A stretch of 36,471 nucleotides of DNA from a virus. Below the pieces are notes generated by a model. It was not told the DNA's origin, made no database searches, and was given only the letters and a program-made list of their open reading frames with translations. How positions within the stretch are numbered: the first letter of the stretch is position 1; every line of letters starts with the position of its first letter. This document shows, piece after piece, positions 5,129 through 36,471 of the stretch. The position numbers and the translations under genes were made by a program. The stretch is taken from positions 1 to 36,471 of IMG/VR virus record IMGVR_UViG_3300021963_000344. One strand, written 5' to 3'.

Positions 5129-6094
5129 TTATAAAAATTGTTCAAATAATTTAGCAGCGTCAGAGACTTTCCCTGACTGTTTAAACTGCTGTCTTAACCG
5201 CTTAGTTTTTTCTGCCTCTAAACTTCCTTGTGGCTTACCGACTCCAGGTCTTAGCATCTTAGGAGCTTGGCTTACTTTCTTGTTTACCTCGCCCTTGTTT
5301 TGCATTAACTTGTCGTACTGCATAGCCTTGTAAAGAGTCAGAACTGCACGAGAGTCATAAACCTTCGAGAGTTCGTCTGCTGAAAACCCAATGCTTTCGG
5401 CATAAGATCGGATGCTCTTACGAACAACCTCACCTTTTTGTGGGTCTAAATACTCAGGCAAAACTTTAGATAGCTTTTCAGCTTCTTGAGATACTACTTG
5501 CTGTAATTGGTTTGCTTGCTCTGCTTGTTGCATTTGTGCAATGCGAGCTTGCTCTGCCCTAATAGCATATAGTTTCTTATCGTTTTCAGCCCTTTCTGCC
5601 ACCTTGACTGCATAGCCAATGGGGTCAGTTTCTTTCAACTCATCGAGGTTCTCGCCCTGTGTTTGCGATCTGAGAGCTTGCTCAATAATCTGCAAACGCT
5701 GTGCGTATGTATCTCGTAGTTGTTTAGCTTGCTCTACAGCCTGTCGCTCGGCTTCTACAGCCTTGCGCTGTTCGGCAAGTGTTTGGGTTTTTTTAGTATA
5801 GTCAGCTTCTCTCTGATAGCCTTTTACAAGCTCATCAAGCGACACCTCGGATTCCTGTCCATCTACTTTGACACGATACCTTGGCTGCTCTACTTCTTGC
5901 TCTGCTTCTTCGGAGTCCTCTGAATCGTACTGTTCTTCGTACTGTTCTTCGGCTTGGGCTTCTGCTGGCTGTGATTGCTGCTCCTCTGGTTGCTCTTGCG
6001 AGGCTTCGGAAGCATCCATCATAGCTAGTAAACTGCTTGCAGCTTGATCTACTGTAAGCGATTCATTCCCTTTCGGGGTGATGTTTTCACTCAT
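5129..6094 (-). CDS. Capsid scaffolding protein
   Basis: The protein has 321 residues with very biased composition. An acidic Glu/Gln/Asp-rich N-terminus (to about residue 75) is followed by long charged coiled coil (residues 75-200, many A/E/Q/K) and a basic C-terminal tail. This composition and the position immediately upstream of the capsid gene are typical of scaffolding proteins, which template procapsid assembly and bind capsid subunits through a basic C-terminus. No protease domain is visible. Gene spacing to the capsid gene is 9 nt. Confidence 0.82.
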   Translation of the reverse strand: MSENITPKGNESLTVDQAASSLLAMMDASEASQEQPEEQQSQPAEAQAEEQYEEQYDSEDSEEAEQEVEQPRYRVKVDGQESEVSLDELVKGYQREADYTKKTQTLAEQRKAVEAERQAVEQAKQLRDTYAQRLQIIEQALRSQTQGENLDELKETDPIGYAVKVAERAENDKKLYAIRAEQARIAQMQQAEQANQLQQVVSQEAEKLSKVLPEYLDPQKGEVVRKSIRSYAESIGFSADELSKVYDSRAVLTLYKAMQYDKLMQNKGEVNKKVSQAPKMLRPGVGKPQGSLEAEKTKRLRQQFKQSGKVSDAAKLFEQFL

Positions 6095-19122: not shown

Positions 19123-19304
19123 AATCGTAGTATTTCTTCCTCTAGTTTCTGTCTGCCTTTTAAGCCTCTGTGTTTCTCTACCTCTACTAAGAACTTTCTA
19201 CGATCTGCAAGTTTCCAACTTAATACTTCTCTTGCTTCGCACTCTGCTCTCCATGCTTCGCTATATGTATCTATTGCAAGTTGATTCCCATTTTCTGTAG
19301 GCAT
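19026..19304 (-). CDS. Small conserved phage protein (DUF7696-like)
   Basis: The protein has 92 residues from ATG 19304. The pattern YSEAWRAECEAREVLSWKLADRRKF followed by VEKHRGLKGRQKLEEEILRLW is a recurring early-phage protein motif of unknown function, possibly DUF7696. The conserved part ends near residue 66. The following 26 residues overlap the next gene in another frame, so they may be non-conserved run-on. Its start overlaps the replication-domain gene by 34 nt. Confidence 0.6.
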   Translation of the reverse strand: MPTENGNQLAIDTYSEAWRAECEAREVLSWKLADRRKFLVEVEKHRGLKGRQKLEEEILRLWNLRTKQSNTSLQTQESTQKPRQTEFILSSS

Positions 19305-19645
19305 TTTTGTTTTAGTGTGTAGTAAGTATCGTATCCATTGCCTAGAACATTTAGCTCTTTTGCTTTTCTCTCTATGCCTTCGTTTGTAACCATCCAAGAC
19401 ATATCTTGCTTTTCTTTCTTTGGTGTTAAGTCTATTTCATCCAACCATCGCCAGCCGTTAAGCCAAGTAGCTGGGTGGCAAATATAGTCTTTCTCTGTCT
19501 GCTTTAGTTCCCAATGCTTAACATGGTTAGGCAAGGCATCTATCGCCAGTTGTTGATCTAGCGGTGTTAGCTTTAGCCATGCTTTTAGTGCAGCACCTTT
19601 GGCAATCTTTCTAGGGTACATAGACCAAAATGTTTCAAAACTCAT
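19271..19645 (-). CDS. Replication protein O-like C-terminal domain, stand-alone
   Basis: The protein has 124 residues. It begins SFETFWSMYPRKIAKGAALK and has AWLKLTPLDQQLAIDALPNH and YICHPATWLNGWRWLDEI. This is the C-terminal module of many phage O/DnaA-like replication proteins ('FWxxYPRKxGKxAAxKAW...PHPATWLNxxRWxDE'). Here it occurs without the N-terminal DNA-binding domain. It may help recruit the host helicase. It is the only replication-initiation candidate I can find. Confidence 0.65.
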   Translation of the reverse strand: MSFETFWSMYPRKIAKGAALKAWLKLTPLDQQLAIDALPNHVKHWELKQTEKDYICHPATWLNGWRWLDEIDLTPKKEKQDMSWMVTNEGIERKAKELNVLGNGYDTYYTLKQKCLQKMGINLQ

Positions 19646-20954: not shown

Positions 20955-20973
20955 AATGATCTCCTTTTGTAGA

Positions 20974-21002
20974 ATCATAATGTAGATTATCTACAAATGC
21001 AA
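20974..21002 (-). promoter_or_regulatory. Leftward early promoter with operator dyad in the spacer
   Basis: On the minus strand TTGCAT (21002-20997) and TATGAT (20979-20974) are separated by exactly 17 nt. The spacer contains the dyad TGTAGAT-N-ATCTACA (20981-20995), with 7-bp perfect arms. Another TTGTAGA half-site follows at 20967-20973. It lies 20 nt before the first gene of the leftward operon. The likely regulator is the HTH protein at 21810-21998. Confidence 0.65.
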
Positions 21003-21124
21003 TGACTTAGTTTTATTAATATTTCATGCAATTTTATGGGTTTTTGTAAACAATAAGAAACATAAATGTAGCGTTAGCTATCCTAAAGTAATGTTTATGT
21101 AACATTTTGACAATAGCTTACTTT

Positions 21125-21233
21125 GGGTGATATGCCTTATCACCTGATCCATCTCTACCAGATATAGAGACTAATCCTTCCTAAGATAATGTTCGCTCAT
21201 TTGTAGATGTGTATATCACCCTTGATCTACAAA
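21125..21233. repeat. Two interleaved 9-bp inverted repeats
   Basis: GGGTGATAT at 21125-21133 is the exact reverse complement of ATATCACCC at 21213-21221. The latter lies inside the loop of a second perfect pair, TTTGTAGAT (21200-21208) and ATCTACAAA (21225-21233), which uses the operator half-site. A local alternative, GGTGAT/ATCACC, surrounds 21126-21144. The interleaving could serve looping by a DNA-binding protein or RNA structure. Confidence 0.55.
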
Positions 21234-21346
21234 CTTGTGCAGTACCCATTTAAGTCTGCGAGGCTTGCCATCCTGGTAGTGAGCCTATCTTTTCTCCCAC
21301 GCTGCCGATTTAAGCACTTTATACGCTTGGGGTGCGAGCAGAAATA

Positions 21347-21469
21347 GAAAAACCCCATAGGGTAGCTCTAAGTTGAACCCACTTAACAAAAGAATCCACG
21401 ACTTTTGCTAAATGCTCAAAGCTACCCTATAGGGTCTTGTGGATTAATACAAACAGGGTTCAATCTGCT
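21347..21469 (-). ncRNA. Candidate structured small RNA, about 120 nt
   Basis: Reading the minus strand, an outer 16-bp stem pairs 21435-21420 with 21367-21352. It encloses a 10-bp stem pairing 21411-21402 with 21392-21383. Each stem has a single non-Watson-Crick pair, and both are G-U on the minus strand (A-C on the plus strand), which favours minus-strand RNA. The outer stem is followed by five T residues (21352-21348). Two upstream segments can pair alternatively: TTGAACCC (21463-21456 read on minus) with GGGTTCAA (21380-21373), and AATCCAC (21445-21439) with GTGGATT (21399-21393). A perfect TATAAT box sits just upstream. No Rfam family was recognised. Confidence 0.6.
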
Positions 21470-21475
21470 GCTGTA

Positions 21476-21503
21476 ATTATAAACCATTCACCGCATTTGC
21501 GGT
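21476..21503 (-). promoter_or_regulatory. Promoter candidate for the small RNA, with overlapping dyad
   Basis: A perfect TATAAT lies at 21481-21476 on the minus strand, about 7 nt before the proposed RNA start near 21469. The -35 region has only a weak TTACCG-type match and is occupied by the perfect dyad ACCGCA-N2-TGCGGT (21490-21503), which could be an activator or repressor site. Confidence 0.45.
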
Positions 21504-21505
21504 AA

Positions 21506-21823
21506 TTAGAACTCAAACTCTTTGTAATCGTACCTTCCATTGGGCTTTTTGAACCACCCAATTACTAAGATTCTCCACTTGGATCTTAATACTTCTGCTA
21601 GGAAAGGGGAGTTGCTTATTTTTTTTATTCTTGCTGACATATTGCTTTTGGAAGTAAGCTGAATTGCTATAGTTTCGCCTTTTCCAATAGCCAGTATGTC
21701 GAATAGTCCAAATAAGTCTTTTTTTCGCCTGGTAAAGGCGTTGTAAGATTCGACTGTATCGCACACATATCCCCTTTCTTCTAGTAGGGTTATTGTCCTT
21801 TGGTTAAGGCTAGACAAGATCAT
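21506..21823 (-). CDS. Resolvase-like nuclease, PD-(D/E)XK-type
   Basis: The protein has 105 residues from ATG 21823, which overlaps the HTH gene by 14 nt; in-frame starts at 21841 and 21886 are alternatives. The family beginning LNQRTITLLEERGYVCDTVE, the RRKKDLFGLFDILAI strand with the metal-site Asp (D42), and AIQLTSKSNMSARIKKI (Q55 in place of the usual E/D) match small phage resolvase-like nucleases related to VRR-NUC/Holliday junction enzymes. The C-terminal WRILVIGWFKKPNGRYD is also typical. It pairs with the HTH gene in one short leftward unit. Confidence 0.65.
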   Translation of the reverse strand: MILSSLNQRTITLLEERGYVCDTVESYNAFTRRKKDLFGLFDILAIGKGETIAIQLTSKSNMSARIKKISNSPFLAEVLRSKWRILVIGWFKKPNGRYDYKEFEF

Positions 21824-21998
21824 CCTTTGTAATTTTGCCATCGGATTTAGCAATAATGGTGTCGTGGTGCTTTTCTGGGATGCCATTACGCATGAACCAG
21901 GCGTACACAGTTACATACTTGATACCTAGAGCCTCGGATATGCCTTTGTAGCTGCCAAAGACCTCTAATAGCTTATCGAATGGTTGTTTATCTGCCAT
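21810..21998 (-). CDS. Cro/YdaS-like helix-turn-helix regulator
   Basis: The protein has 62 residues, the usual length for Cro/YdaS-type repressors. The HTH is FGSYKGISEALGIKYVTVYAWF, followed by RNGIPEKHHDTII, which matches the 'W..G.IP....I' recognition-helix extension of YdaS proteins. A strong AAGGAG lies before the ATG. It is transcribed away from the rightward operon across a region with four TCTACA half-sites, so it probably represses its own promoter and the divergent early promoters. Confidence 0.8.
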   Translation of the reverse strand: MADKQPFDKLLEVFGSYKGISEALGIKYVTVYAWFMRNGIPEKHHDTIIAKSDGKITKDDLV

Positions 21999-35296: not shown

Positions 35297-36079
35297 TTAT
35301 CCAACTAAAATATAGCCGTATGTTTTATTTGCTGTATTGTTGGCATAATGGCTAATTGTTGCTGATCCTTGGGTTTGGGCGCTAACATAAACATTACTAA
35401 GGCTGCCGCCTGATATTGCTTGCATTGTTGCAATAACAGAAGGTGTAGCTGGTCTTGTAGGACTTGTTTGTGCTGGTGTTTGTTCTATAGAAAGAGCAGT
35501 ATTTTCTGCTTTCCATACAATCTCTACATAATCATTTGCTGCCAGTTCAATAAAATAATTTAATGCTGCAATAACATGACCAAAAATACTAGCACTTTTA
35601 CGGGCTGGAACAGTGAATTTACTATTAGAATTGGCTATATTTGTACCATTCTTTCTAAACCAAATATCTACATCGTGTTGAGCATTATCTTGATTTTCAA
35701 GCTGTGCGCTAAATTGCAAGTTATAAACACCAGCATTTCTAACATTTAATCTACTGCTATTAGACAAATAAATACCATTGGAATAATCCGTAGTATTAAA
35801 TGTCATTGGGTAAGCAACAGTCGTACTTGCTGCTGCTTGGTCTGTAGAGTCTTGAAACGCACCATACGGAATAGAATCCGAGAAAGCATTAGCAGAATAA
35901 GGCACTAATACAATCTTAGTATCAGAGCTAATGCGCTCATCATACAAAGTCGTAGTTGTGGCGTTGCCTGTGGCTAATGTGACGCTACCTGTATTGTTGG
36001 TCTTGCCGTTTAACATTTGACGGACAACTTCAGCCACATTTCGAGGATCAGAGCCAAAATTGGGTAATGTCCGAAACAT
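35297..36079 (-). CDS. Beta-rich tail or decoration protein
   Basis: The protein has 260 residues. The start MFRTLPNFGSDPRNVAEVVR with QMLNGKTNNTGSVTLATGNA and TTTTLYDERISSDTKIVLVP are recurrent blocks in environmental podoviruses. Residues 115-185 (NAGVYNLQFSAQLENQ, HDVDIWFRKNGTNI, ANDYVEIVWKAE) resemble a jelly-roll or C1q-like sandwich. It follows the tail hub with a TAATG overlap. Binding of sugars or decoration of the tail is possible but not shown. Confidence 0.62.
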   Translation of the reverse strand: MFRTLPNFGSDPRNVAEVVRQMLNGKTNNTGSVTLATGNATTTTLYDERISSDTKIVLVPYSANAFSDSIPYGAFQDSTDQAAASTTVAYPMTFNTTDYSNGIYLSNSSRLNVRNAGVYNLQFSAQLENQDNAQHDVDIWFRKNGTNIANSNSKFTVPARKSASIFGHVIAALNYFIELAANDYVEIVWKAENTALSIEQTPAQTSPTRPATPSVIATMQAISGGSLSNVYVSAQTQGSATISHYANNTANKTYGYILVG

Positions 36080-36471
36080 TATCTATTTCCCTGTGGTGCA
36101 ATATCTACATCAACGGCTAAAGCTGATGTCCATAAACCGCTTGGAATGGTCTTAATTCGATGGTATCTACCAGCAGAACGCAGTCCAATCCTATTTTCAC
36201 TATCAGCAGCTACAGCAGTATTAAATGTAATTGCGCTATTTAGATTTACCCTAGACGCAATAGCAATGCTTCCTGATCCATTGTCAATAATGGGTTTACC
36301 TAGGGTTACTACTGATCTGCCATTAGGAATACCAAAATCACCAGTAATTAGCGAGGCTGTCTTTCTAGCGCCAGTAAAAGAGATAGCTTTAGCACTTGTT
36401 ACCCCAGCCAATAGCAAAGCACCACCAGCCCATTGGCGAGAGTCCAAGCTGACACCCAATGAGTCGAGCGT
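36079..36471 (-). CDS. Tail hub protein (P22 gp10-like), C-terminal part
   Basis: This segment is open at the right window edge and encodes 130 residues. The first 54 repeat those at 1-162, and the last 76 are unique to this end: VTLGKPIIDNGSGSIAIASR, then NLNSAITFNTAVAADSENRI, ending VDIAPQGNR. It completes the gene that starts at 1200. The stop overlaps the next ATG as TAATG. An internal ATG at 36459 is not the real start, because the frame continues upstream on the circle. Confidence 0.75.
   Translation of the reverse strand, partial: TLDSLGVSLDSRQWAGGALLLAGVTSAKAISFTGARKTASLITGDFGIPNGRSVVTLGKPIIDNGSGSIAIASRVNLNSAITFNTAVAADSENRIGLRSAGRYHRIKTIPSGLWTSALAVDVDIAPQGNR
36310..36471. repeat. Right copy of the terminal direct repeat
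   Basis: This is the second copy of bases 1-162. The first 126 bases are identical and the last 36 show seven silent third-position changes in the tail-hub reading frame. Bases 36079-36309 provide the unique continuation that closes the gene on the circle. Confidence 0.9.

Follow-up and report, generated by a model that had tools for sequence, protein, structure and literature searches.

A structured RNA of freshwater phages with two pairs of distant, covarying arms

What is encoded by the quasi-palindromic interval at positions 21347-21503 of a viral genome, and what role do its several complementary segments play? The window analysed here is the whole 36,471-nucleotide stretch of IMG/VR record IMGVR_UViG_3300021963_000344. 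Its positions 1-200 and 36079-36471 encode the same peptide stretch (SLDSRQWAGGALLLAG...) and therefore mark a direct terminal repeat, so that the window is probably a complete circular genome. An initial annotation of the interval, made from sequence alone, proposed a discrete minus-strand RNA of ~120 nt, a switchable attenuator or an origin-linked DNA structure. We find that the interval holds a structured minus-strand RNA of ~131 nt, denoted RNA1 (Table 1), in which two leader arms (A and B) match a bulge (A') and an apical loop (B') of a long hairpin built from helices C and D. We regard this structure, its helices and its pairing, as nearly certain.

Contigs were gathered using a neighbouring gene and a 19-base core pattern, followed by further patterns to recover more. 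Profile searches placed RNA1 in 196 gathered sequences (loci and window), so that it is present in ~190 other IMG/VR viral contigs, all homologues being metagenomic contigs. Because RNA1 is quasi-palindromic, nhmmer also returns reverse-strand matches, and only the best strand was kept. More than 100 variants were aligned; one cut gives 115 distinct RNA1 sequences, the parsed set contains 104, and a 52-sequence alignment (A1) is the basis of the covariation test. RNA1 occurs as a rule once per genome. Two variants are found both in IMGVR_UViG_3300047557_000594 (44384 bases) and in 3300044633_000120, either separated by roughly one genome length or located beside the contig ends; we rejected a true double copy in these records, which look like strain variants of a circular genome joined in assembly.

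Among the families of Rfam 15 none matches the window above its gathering threshold (best sub-threshold score 17 bits, E 0.6-1.6, chance-like), no tRNA gene lies in the window, and RNA1 has no match in annotated phage records. The RNA1 model also found nothing in 398 Burkholderiaceae genomes, a result of little weight as these are not known hosts. A scan of genomes with the core pattern gave 4 matches; those inspected (L129, L130 and L131, our own handles) lack the rest of the element and were dismissed as chance. Judged against Rfam 15 and the open-access literature searched, RNA1 is uncatalogued, and an earlier listing elsewhere is not excluded.

Table 1. Coordinates of RNA1, its parts and its neighbours in the window
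Feature	Position	Strand	Description	Support
RNA1, whole element	21338..21468	-	5' end 21468, 3' end 21338	unit kept in 196 sequences; covariation; z -7.4
-10 element	21476..21481	-	TATAAT, 7 nt before RNA1 5' end	at least 5/6 match in 102/104 variants
P0 5' strand	21464..21468	-	GCAGA, closing helix	pairs with TCTGC in 100/104; GCGGA/TCCGC variant
Arm A	21456..21463	-	TTGAACCC	A/A' covariation
Arm B	21439..21445	-	AATCCAC	~60 distinct B/B' helices; own pairing far exceeds cross pairing
Helix C 5' strand	21415..21436	-	22 bp (21436-21415 with 21372-21351), GACCCTATAGGGTAGCTTTGAG	97.9% of cells paired, 9 pairs changed on both sides; G-U pairs
Helix D 5' strand	21402..21414	-	13 bp (21414-21402 with 21392-21380)	96.9% of cells paired, 9 pairs changed on both sides
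Arm B'	21393..21399	-	GTGGATT, apical loop	covaries with B
Helix D 3' strand	21380..21392	-		covariation
Arm A'	21373..21380	-	GGGTTCAA, bulge between D and C	covaries with A; concerted switches
Helix C 3' strand	21351..21372	-	runs into T-run	covariation
U-rich tract	21343..21352	-	TTTTTCTATT; intrinsic-terminator-like after helix C	near invariant in A1
P0 3' strand	21338..21342	-	TCTGC	pairs with GCAGA
RNA2 class alpha	21107..21336	-	non-coding, directly 3' of RNA1	downstream alignment; 3' limit approximate
f1 gene	21506..21886	-		directly upstream of RNA1 in 90/196 sequences
YdaS/Cro-like HTH regulator	21810..21998	-	upstream, same direction	PF15943 E 1e-4; phrog_409 4e-6
f0, replication-initiation-like gene	19271..19645	-	downstream, same direction	phrog_270 E 2.5e-17

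Across all helices of A1, 92.9% of cells are paired (77.9% in shuffled alignments), and the covariation score is 0.402, against 0.148 for shuffled and 0.05-0.07 for slid alignments. Changes on both sides affect 31 pairs (356 cells); the observed values exceed those of all 500 shuffles, and slides of 1-3 columns collapse the signal. The arms A and A' form 31 distinct 7-bp helices (211 Watson-Crick, 4 G-U and 2 mismatch cells, 97% Watson-Crick); within A1, 98.0% of their cells are paired and 6/7 pairs are changed on both sides. A single base, the G at 21380, is common to arm A' and helix D. Arm B falls out of register in the MAFFT columns (62% paired), and its support therefore rests on own-register and swap tests: read in their own register, the B/B' helices comprise 384 Watson-Crick, 22 G-U, 11 A-C and 3 other cells, and exchanging partners between variants lowers the score from 17.4 to 10.6. 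The closing helix P0, which the initial annotation had missed, joins the ends of RNA1. Because it pairs past the T-run, the element must extend beyond that run to ~131 nt; the CAG of its 5' strand can instead pair with a local CTG, leaving arm A exposed in a loop.

The features on which the initial annotation was built, namely the stems, the complementarities, the T-run and the TATAAT (21481-21476), are all real and lie on the minus strand where it had placed them. Homologues lengthen its 16-bp outer stem to 22 bp and its 10-bp inner stem to 13 bp. The 8-bp and 7-bp pairings that it held to conflict with these stems are true helices with massive compensatory change, and the conflict with the hairpin is not obligatory. 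It had added that a lack of compensatory changes, or equally stable folding of shuffled sequence, would refute an RNA. Such changes are abundant, and the folding energy of the minus-strand RNA from 21340-21469 is -54 kcal/mol (z = -7.4), a stability equalled by none of 200 shuffles; the plus strand folds less strongly (z = -3.8). The dyad that it placed over the -35 region is no part of the element: 21490-21503 is present in L002, L003 and L006 and absent from L001, L005 and L008.

Strand is also indicated by wobble pairs; the initial annotation had noted that the one imperfect pair in each of its two stems is G-U only if the minus strand is transcribed. Most sequences of A1 have G-U at six pairs of helices C and D, and the minus strand is therefore the functional one. 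Counts of G-T versus A-C cells (22 vs 11 in arm B, 4 vs 0 in arm A) both favour the same strand. The conserved G-U pairs disfavour the origin-linked DNA structure.

Evidence that the pairing of A with A' matters comes from near-identical phages. Between -68 and +492 of the RNA start (560 nt), the loci L019 and L035 match throughout except for three compensated A base pairs, AGA to GAT and TCT to ATC, at positions 7-9 and 92-94, the two sides of the A pairs. Were differences placed at random, the probability of this pattern would be 1.9e-10, and no third co-varying site exists within the 560 nt common to the two. Eight pairs of RNAs are the same outside A/A' and switched inside; the list yielding them was pre-selected for A/A' changes, and its totals are illustrative only. 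Among RNAs with the same C helix and tail, 29% of A/A' sites still differ. Where f1 genes are 98-100% identical, A/A' shows 0.39 differences per site compared with 0.048 at four-fold sites and 0.13 in helix C, a divergence to which whole-element recombination contributes. The weight of the case is carried by L019/L035 and by this f1-matched comparison. We conclude that the compensated swaps very likely reflect a pairing that matters, the job of that pairing being inferred.

A mutational explanation must be considered, in which template switching during replication between the inverted arms keeps them complementary and the pairing has little function. Such copying could also produce concerted changes without selection, and each switched block indeed covers 1-5 contiguous bp on both arms and leaves the sequence between them unchanged. 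Against it, helices C and D are also inverted repeats and are conserved without such blocks; distant RNA classes, one of them without B, retain A pairing; and G-U wobble, which DNA copying does not predict, is tolerated. We consider this explanation very unlikely.

How the arms coexist with the hairpin is less settled. The initial annotation suggested a two-state switch or a pseudoknot, and neither is singled out: a nested fold with A and B paired averages 9.9 kcal/mol above the MFE and equals it in L191, L201 and L006. We do not claim strict two-state exclusion of B-B' by C and D, because linker and helix lengths allow a side-by-side double pseudoknot. Helix C measures 22 bp, close to the 20-21 bp of D plus B, and 0-7 nt link B to C, so that a double pseudoknot with the hairpin intact may be sterically feasible, on our geometric estimate and without modelling. 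The data may be compatible with a switch, with a static pseudoknot or with pairing between molecules.

The static arrangement leads to a possible alternative, a structural non-coding RNA in which A and B pair in cis as pseudoknot helices and keep C and D aligned next to each other, the compact RNA acting in trans on a host or phage protein. In this alternative arm sequences drift freely and pairing alone matters. In its favour, every helix covaries at once, P0 closes RNA1, and the lengths fit, with D (13 bp) and B (7-8 bp) together matching C and the short linker putting B at the D tip near the base of C. A distinct RNA1 class (L009, L020, L038, L065, L236 and others) keeps A-A', lacks B and B' and carries a longer apical D hairpin instead, again as a structural role would have it. 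Free drift, however, leaves unexplained both the near-saturated arms in phages whose four-fold sites differ by 5% and the switches confined to the arms.

Intermolecular pairing raises a second alternative, self-assembly as in phi29 pRNA, with A-A' and B-B' pairing between molecules into a homo-oligomer. Predicted monomers leave most of A' (84%) and B' (78%) unpaired, along with part of A (58%) and B (57%), arms match within a type only, and pRNA loops covary likewise (PMC12670572). Against it, there is no Rfam match, the packaging motor has an ordinary Terminase_3/6 large subunit and is not of phi29 type, and relatives exist wholly without RNA1. We consider pRNA-like assembly unlikely.

In nearly all loci RNA1 keeps the same strand and lies downstream of a Cro/YdaS-like gene. 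For the window's regulator the PF15943 match falls below the curated cut-off, and phrog_409 is annotated as a transcriptional regulator. Gene f1 is dispensable next to RNA1, its place being taken by an HTH gene in 64 other sequences; its protein has no match in Pfam or PHROGs. By eye, it shows a PD-(D/E)XK/resolvase-like pattern (LFDILAIG...IAIQLT). The downstream family f0 has 140 members among the loci. The -10 element, TATAAT or TATACT, is nearly always 6-9 nt upstream of RNA1, and thus the RNA's own TATAAT, as originally proposed, is conserved in nearly all variants; across the 104 variants no -35 box stands out upstream of it, and no sigma-70 site was called upstream of RNA1. Near-constant strand and position, a conserved -10 and one copy per genome support the proposal that the early control region holds a discrete RNA.

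The same arrangement could suit a put-like RNA: RNA1, with RNA2, would bind RNA polymerase upon emerging and render the enzyme resistant to pausing and termination across the replication operon, and the -10 would be a sigma-dependent pause site and not a promoter. RNA1 does follow a Cro-like gene and precede replication genes, its TATAAT has no -35, and putL of HK022 likewise combines a -10-like pause element with a V-shaped fold of two stems (PMC9378689). Against this, the ~70-nt putRNA occurs in each of the two early operons, the end of RNA1 is a terminator-like U tract, and fast arm diversification is unexpected if the partner is a conserved polymerase. We consider a put-like role unlikely.

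RNA1 is followed by a second conserved, structured RNA, RNA2, which begins a few nt past the TCTGC of RNA1 and whose place is taken by at least 4 unrelated, exchangeable classes (window; L005, L009, L049, L060, L087, L093, L124, L134). One class is Rfam RF02932 (Betaproteobacteria-1 RNA, 88-95 bits), whose matches start 2-3 nt after RNA1 in L049, L060 and L134; RF02932 never matches within RNA1 and has no match in the window. Its presence at this site is the sole suggestion that the host may belong to the Betaproteobacteria. In relatives without RNA1 (L011-L018, L045 and others) an RF02932-like RNA2 directly follows the same -10, and some such relatives carry a different RNA of similar layout. 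RNA1 is therefore an optional 5' module, likely of an untranslated early leader, as inferred without transcript data.

Several side observations concern RNA2. Within the alpha region, 21234-21268 has a 35-base match (94%) to positions 5200-5234 of MW202674.1, a Podoviridae record originating from Manatee Spring; the matched region is annotated with small hypothetical ORFs and lies beside erf. A perfect 9-bp inverted repeat (TTTGTAGAT/ATCTACAAA) lies at 21200-21233, and half-sites TTTGTAGA/ATCTACAAA recur at 20966-20997; together they may be operator repeats. RF02932 scores above cut-off in 57/398 Burkholderiaceae genomes (e.g. L263-L274), often in several copies, and in L272 it has its own promoter-like sequence in a context resembling a mobile element.

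Several unrelated RNA classes at the RNA1 site share its arm layout. One of these, epsilon (L010, L025, L026, L029, L034, L039, L067, L072, L073, L279), has a long stem ending GGGGTTTTCC and a leader arm, GGAAAGCAG or GAATAAGAG, that matches its own loop, and its GGCAAC matches GTTGCC. Epsilon has two B/B' types with few other differences: within ~100 nt either side, nearly all differences between L072 and L029 lie in the leader on the B side and in the loop carrying B'. A further hairpin occupies the same site in L079 (3541-3660) and L080, with an 18-bp stem and T7, a leader TTGGTGG complementary to the loop CCACCAA, and then an apparent GIY-YIG gene.

We propose that RNA1 would be the first untranslated module of the early phage transcript, with helix C and the U tract acting as a putative early transcription terminator between the -10 promoter and the second RNA and replication genes. 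Pairing of leader arms A and B with A' and B' would decide between termination and read-through at the C hairpin, either in cis as a double pseudoknot or in trans by another RNA1 copy. The arms would then serve as self-recognition tags, such that only RNA of the same phage type takes part, and rivalry with related phages in the same cell may drive the rapid arm exchange. RNA1 has the parts of an intrinsic-terminator attenuator: a stable stem, a U tract and conserved, interacting upstream pairing. Against the terminator, P0 is conserved beyond the U tract, and therefore either much RNA1 is read through or the tract is no terminator. Against attenuation stands the longer D hairpin of the class without arm B. 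Also against the proposal, own A' 8-mers are not enriched elsewhere in the same locus (13 versus 21 expected). Attenuation with arms as self-tags is a possibility drawn by analogy with P4 CI RNA, with no data on transcripts, termination or trans-interaction, and although it is our best explanation as a whole, we think it rather easier to doubt than to accept. Searches of 13 near-complete genomes gave no integrase, resolvase or ParA, so that lysogenic immunity may be unlikely. A bolder reading, which we can offer only as conceivable, is that A-A' and B-B' form a private, modular key-and-lock for each phage type, RNA tags of self and non-self. In this reading near-identical strains would swap their arms in a coordinated way, leaving the RNA of a related co-infecting phage unable to engage.

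RNA1 is an abundant, uncatalogued structured RNA of freshwater phages with more than 100 distinct variants. The switching of distant arms with hundreds of bases unaltered is an unusually clean natural experiment, in which RNA-RNA pairing itself is seen to be the target of selection (or of a copying mechanism). Should the arms prove to be self-recognition tags, RNA-level phage competition would gain a specificity code readable from metagenomes, one that compensatory mutants could test. The RNA classes that replace one another at one promoter offer a further way into early phage regulation.

Among known systems, Betaproteobacteria-1 RNA shares the promoter-proximal site and follows RNA1 in some phages, and is unrelated to it in sequence and fold. 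HK022 putRNA is likewise a structured RNA near early phage promoters with a -10-like element nearby and a bent two-stem fold; RNA1 differs in its 131 nt, its two possible pseudoknots, its terminator-like U tract and its single copy per genome, where putRNA has two. The phi29 pRNA is also a ~120-nt phage RNA with paired ends and covarying loop pairs within one RNA, but its loops pair over 3-4 nt between molecules, whereas the RNA1 arms span 7-11 bp. Transcription attenuators share a GC-rich stem with a U tract and competing upstream complementarity. Unlike them, RNA1 has pairings that may coexist and a conserved P0 past the U tract, and to our knowledge it has neither leader peptide nor ligand. 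A further likeness is to the P4 CI RNA with its seqA-seqB-seqC leader and to the P1 C4 antisense RNA. In P4, pairing of complementary leader segments causes premature termination and blocks the replication genes (PMC4825925). RNA1 shares with both systems short complementary segments within one early untranslated transcript upstream of replication genes, and premature termination is proposed for it too. P4 is a temperate satellite, whereas RNA1 phages show no integrase in 13 near-complete genomes; a Cro/YdaS-like regulator is present. RNA1 also has no sequence or Rfam match to these RNAs, and its arms, which pair with the bulge and loop of one 35-bp hairpin, are far more diverse than the P4 CI and P1 C4 segments.
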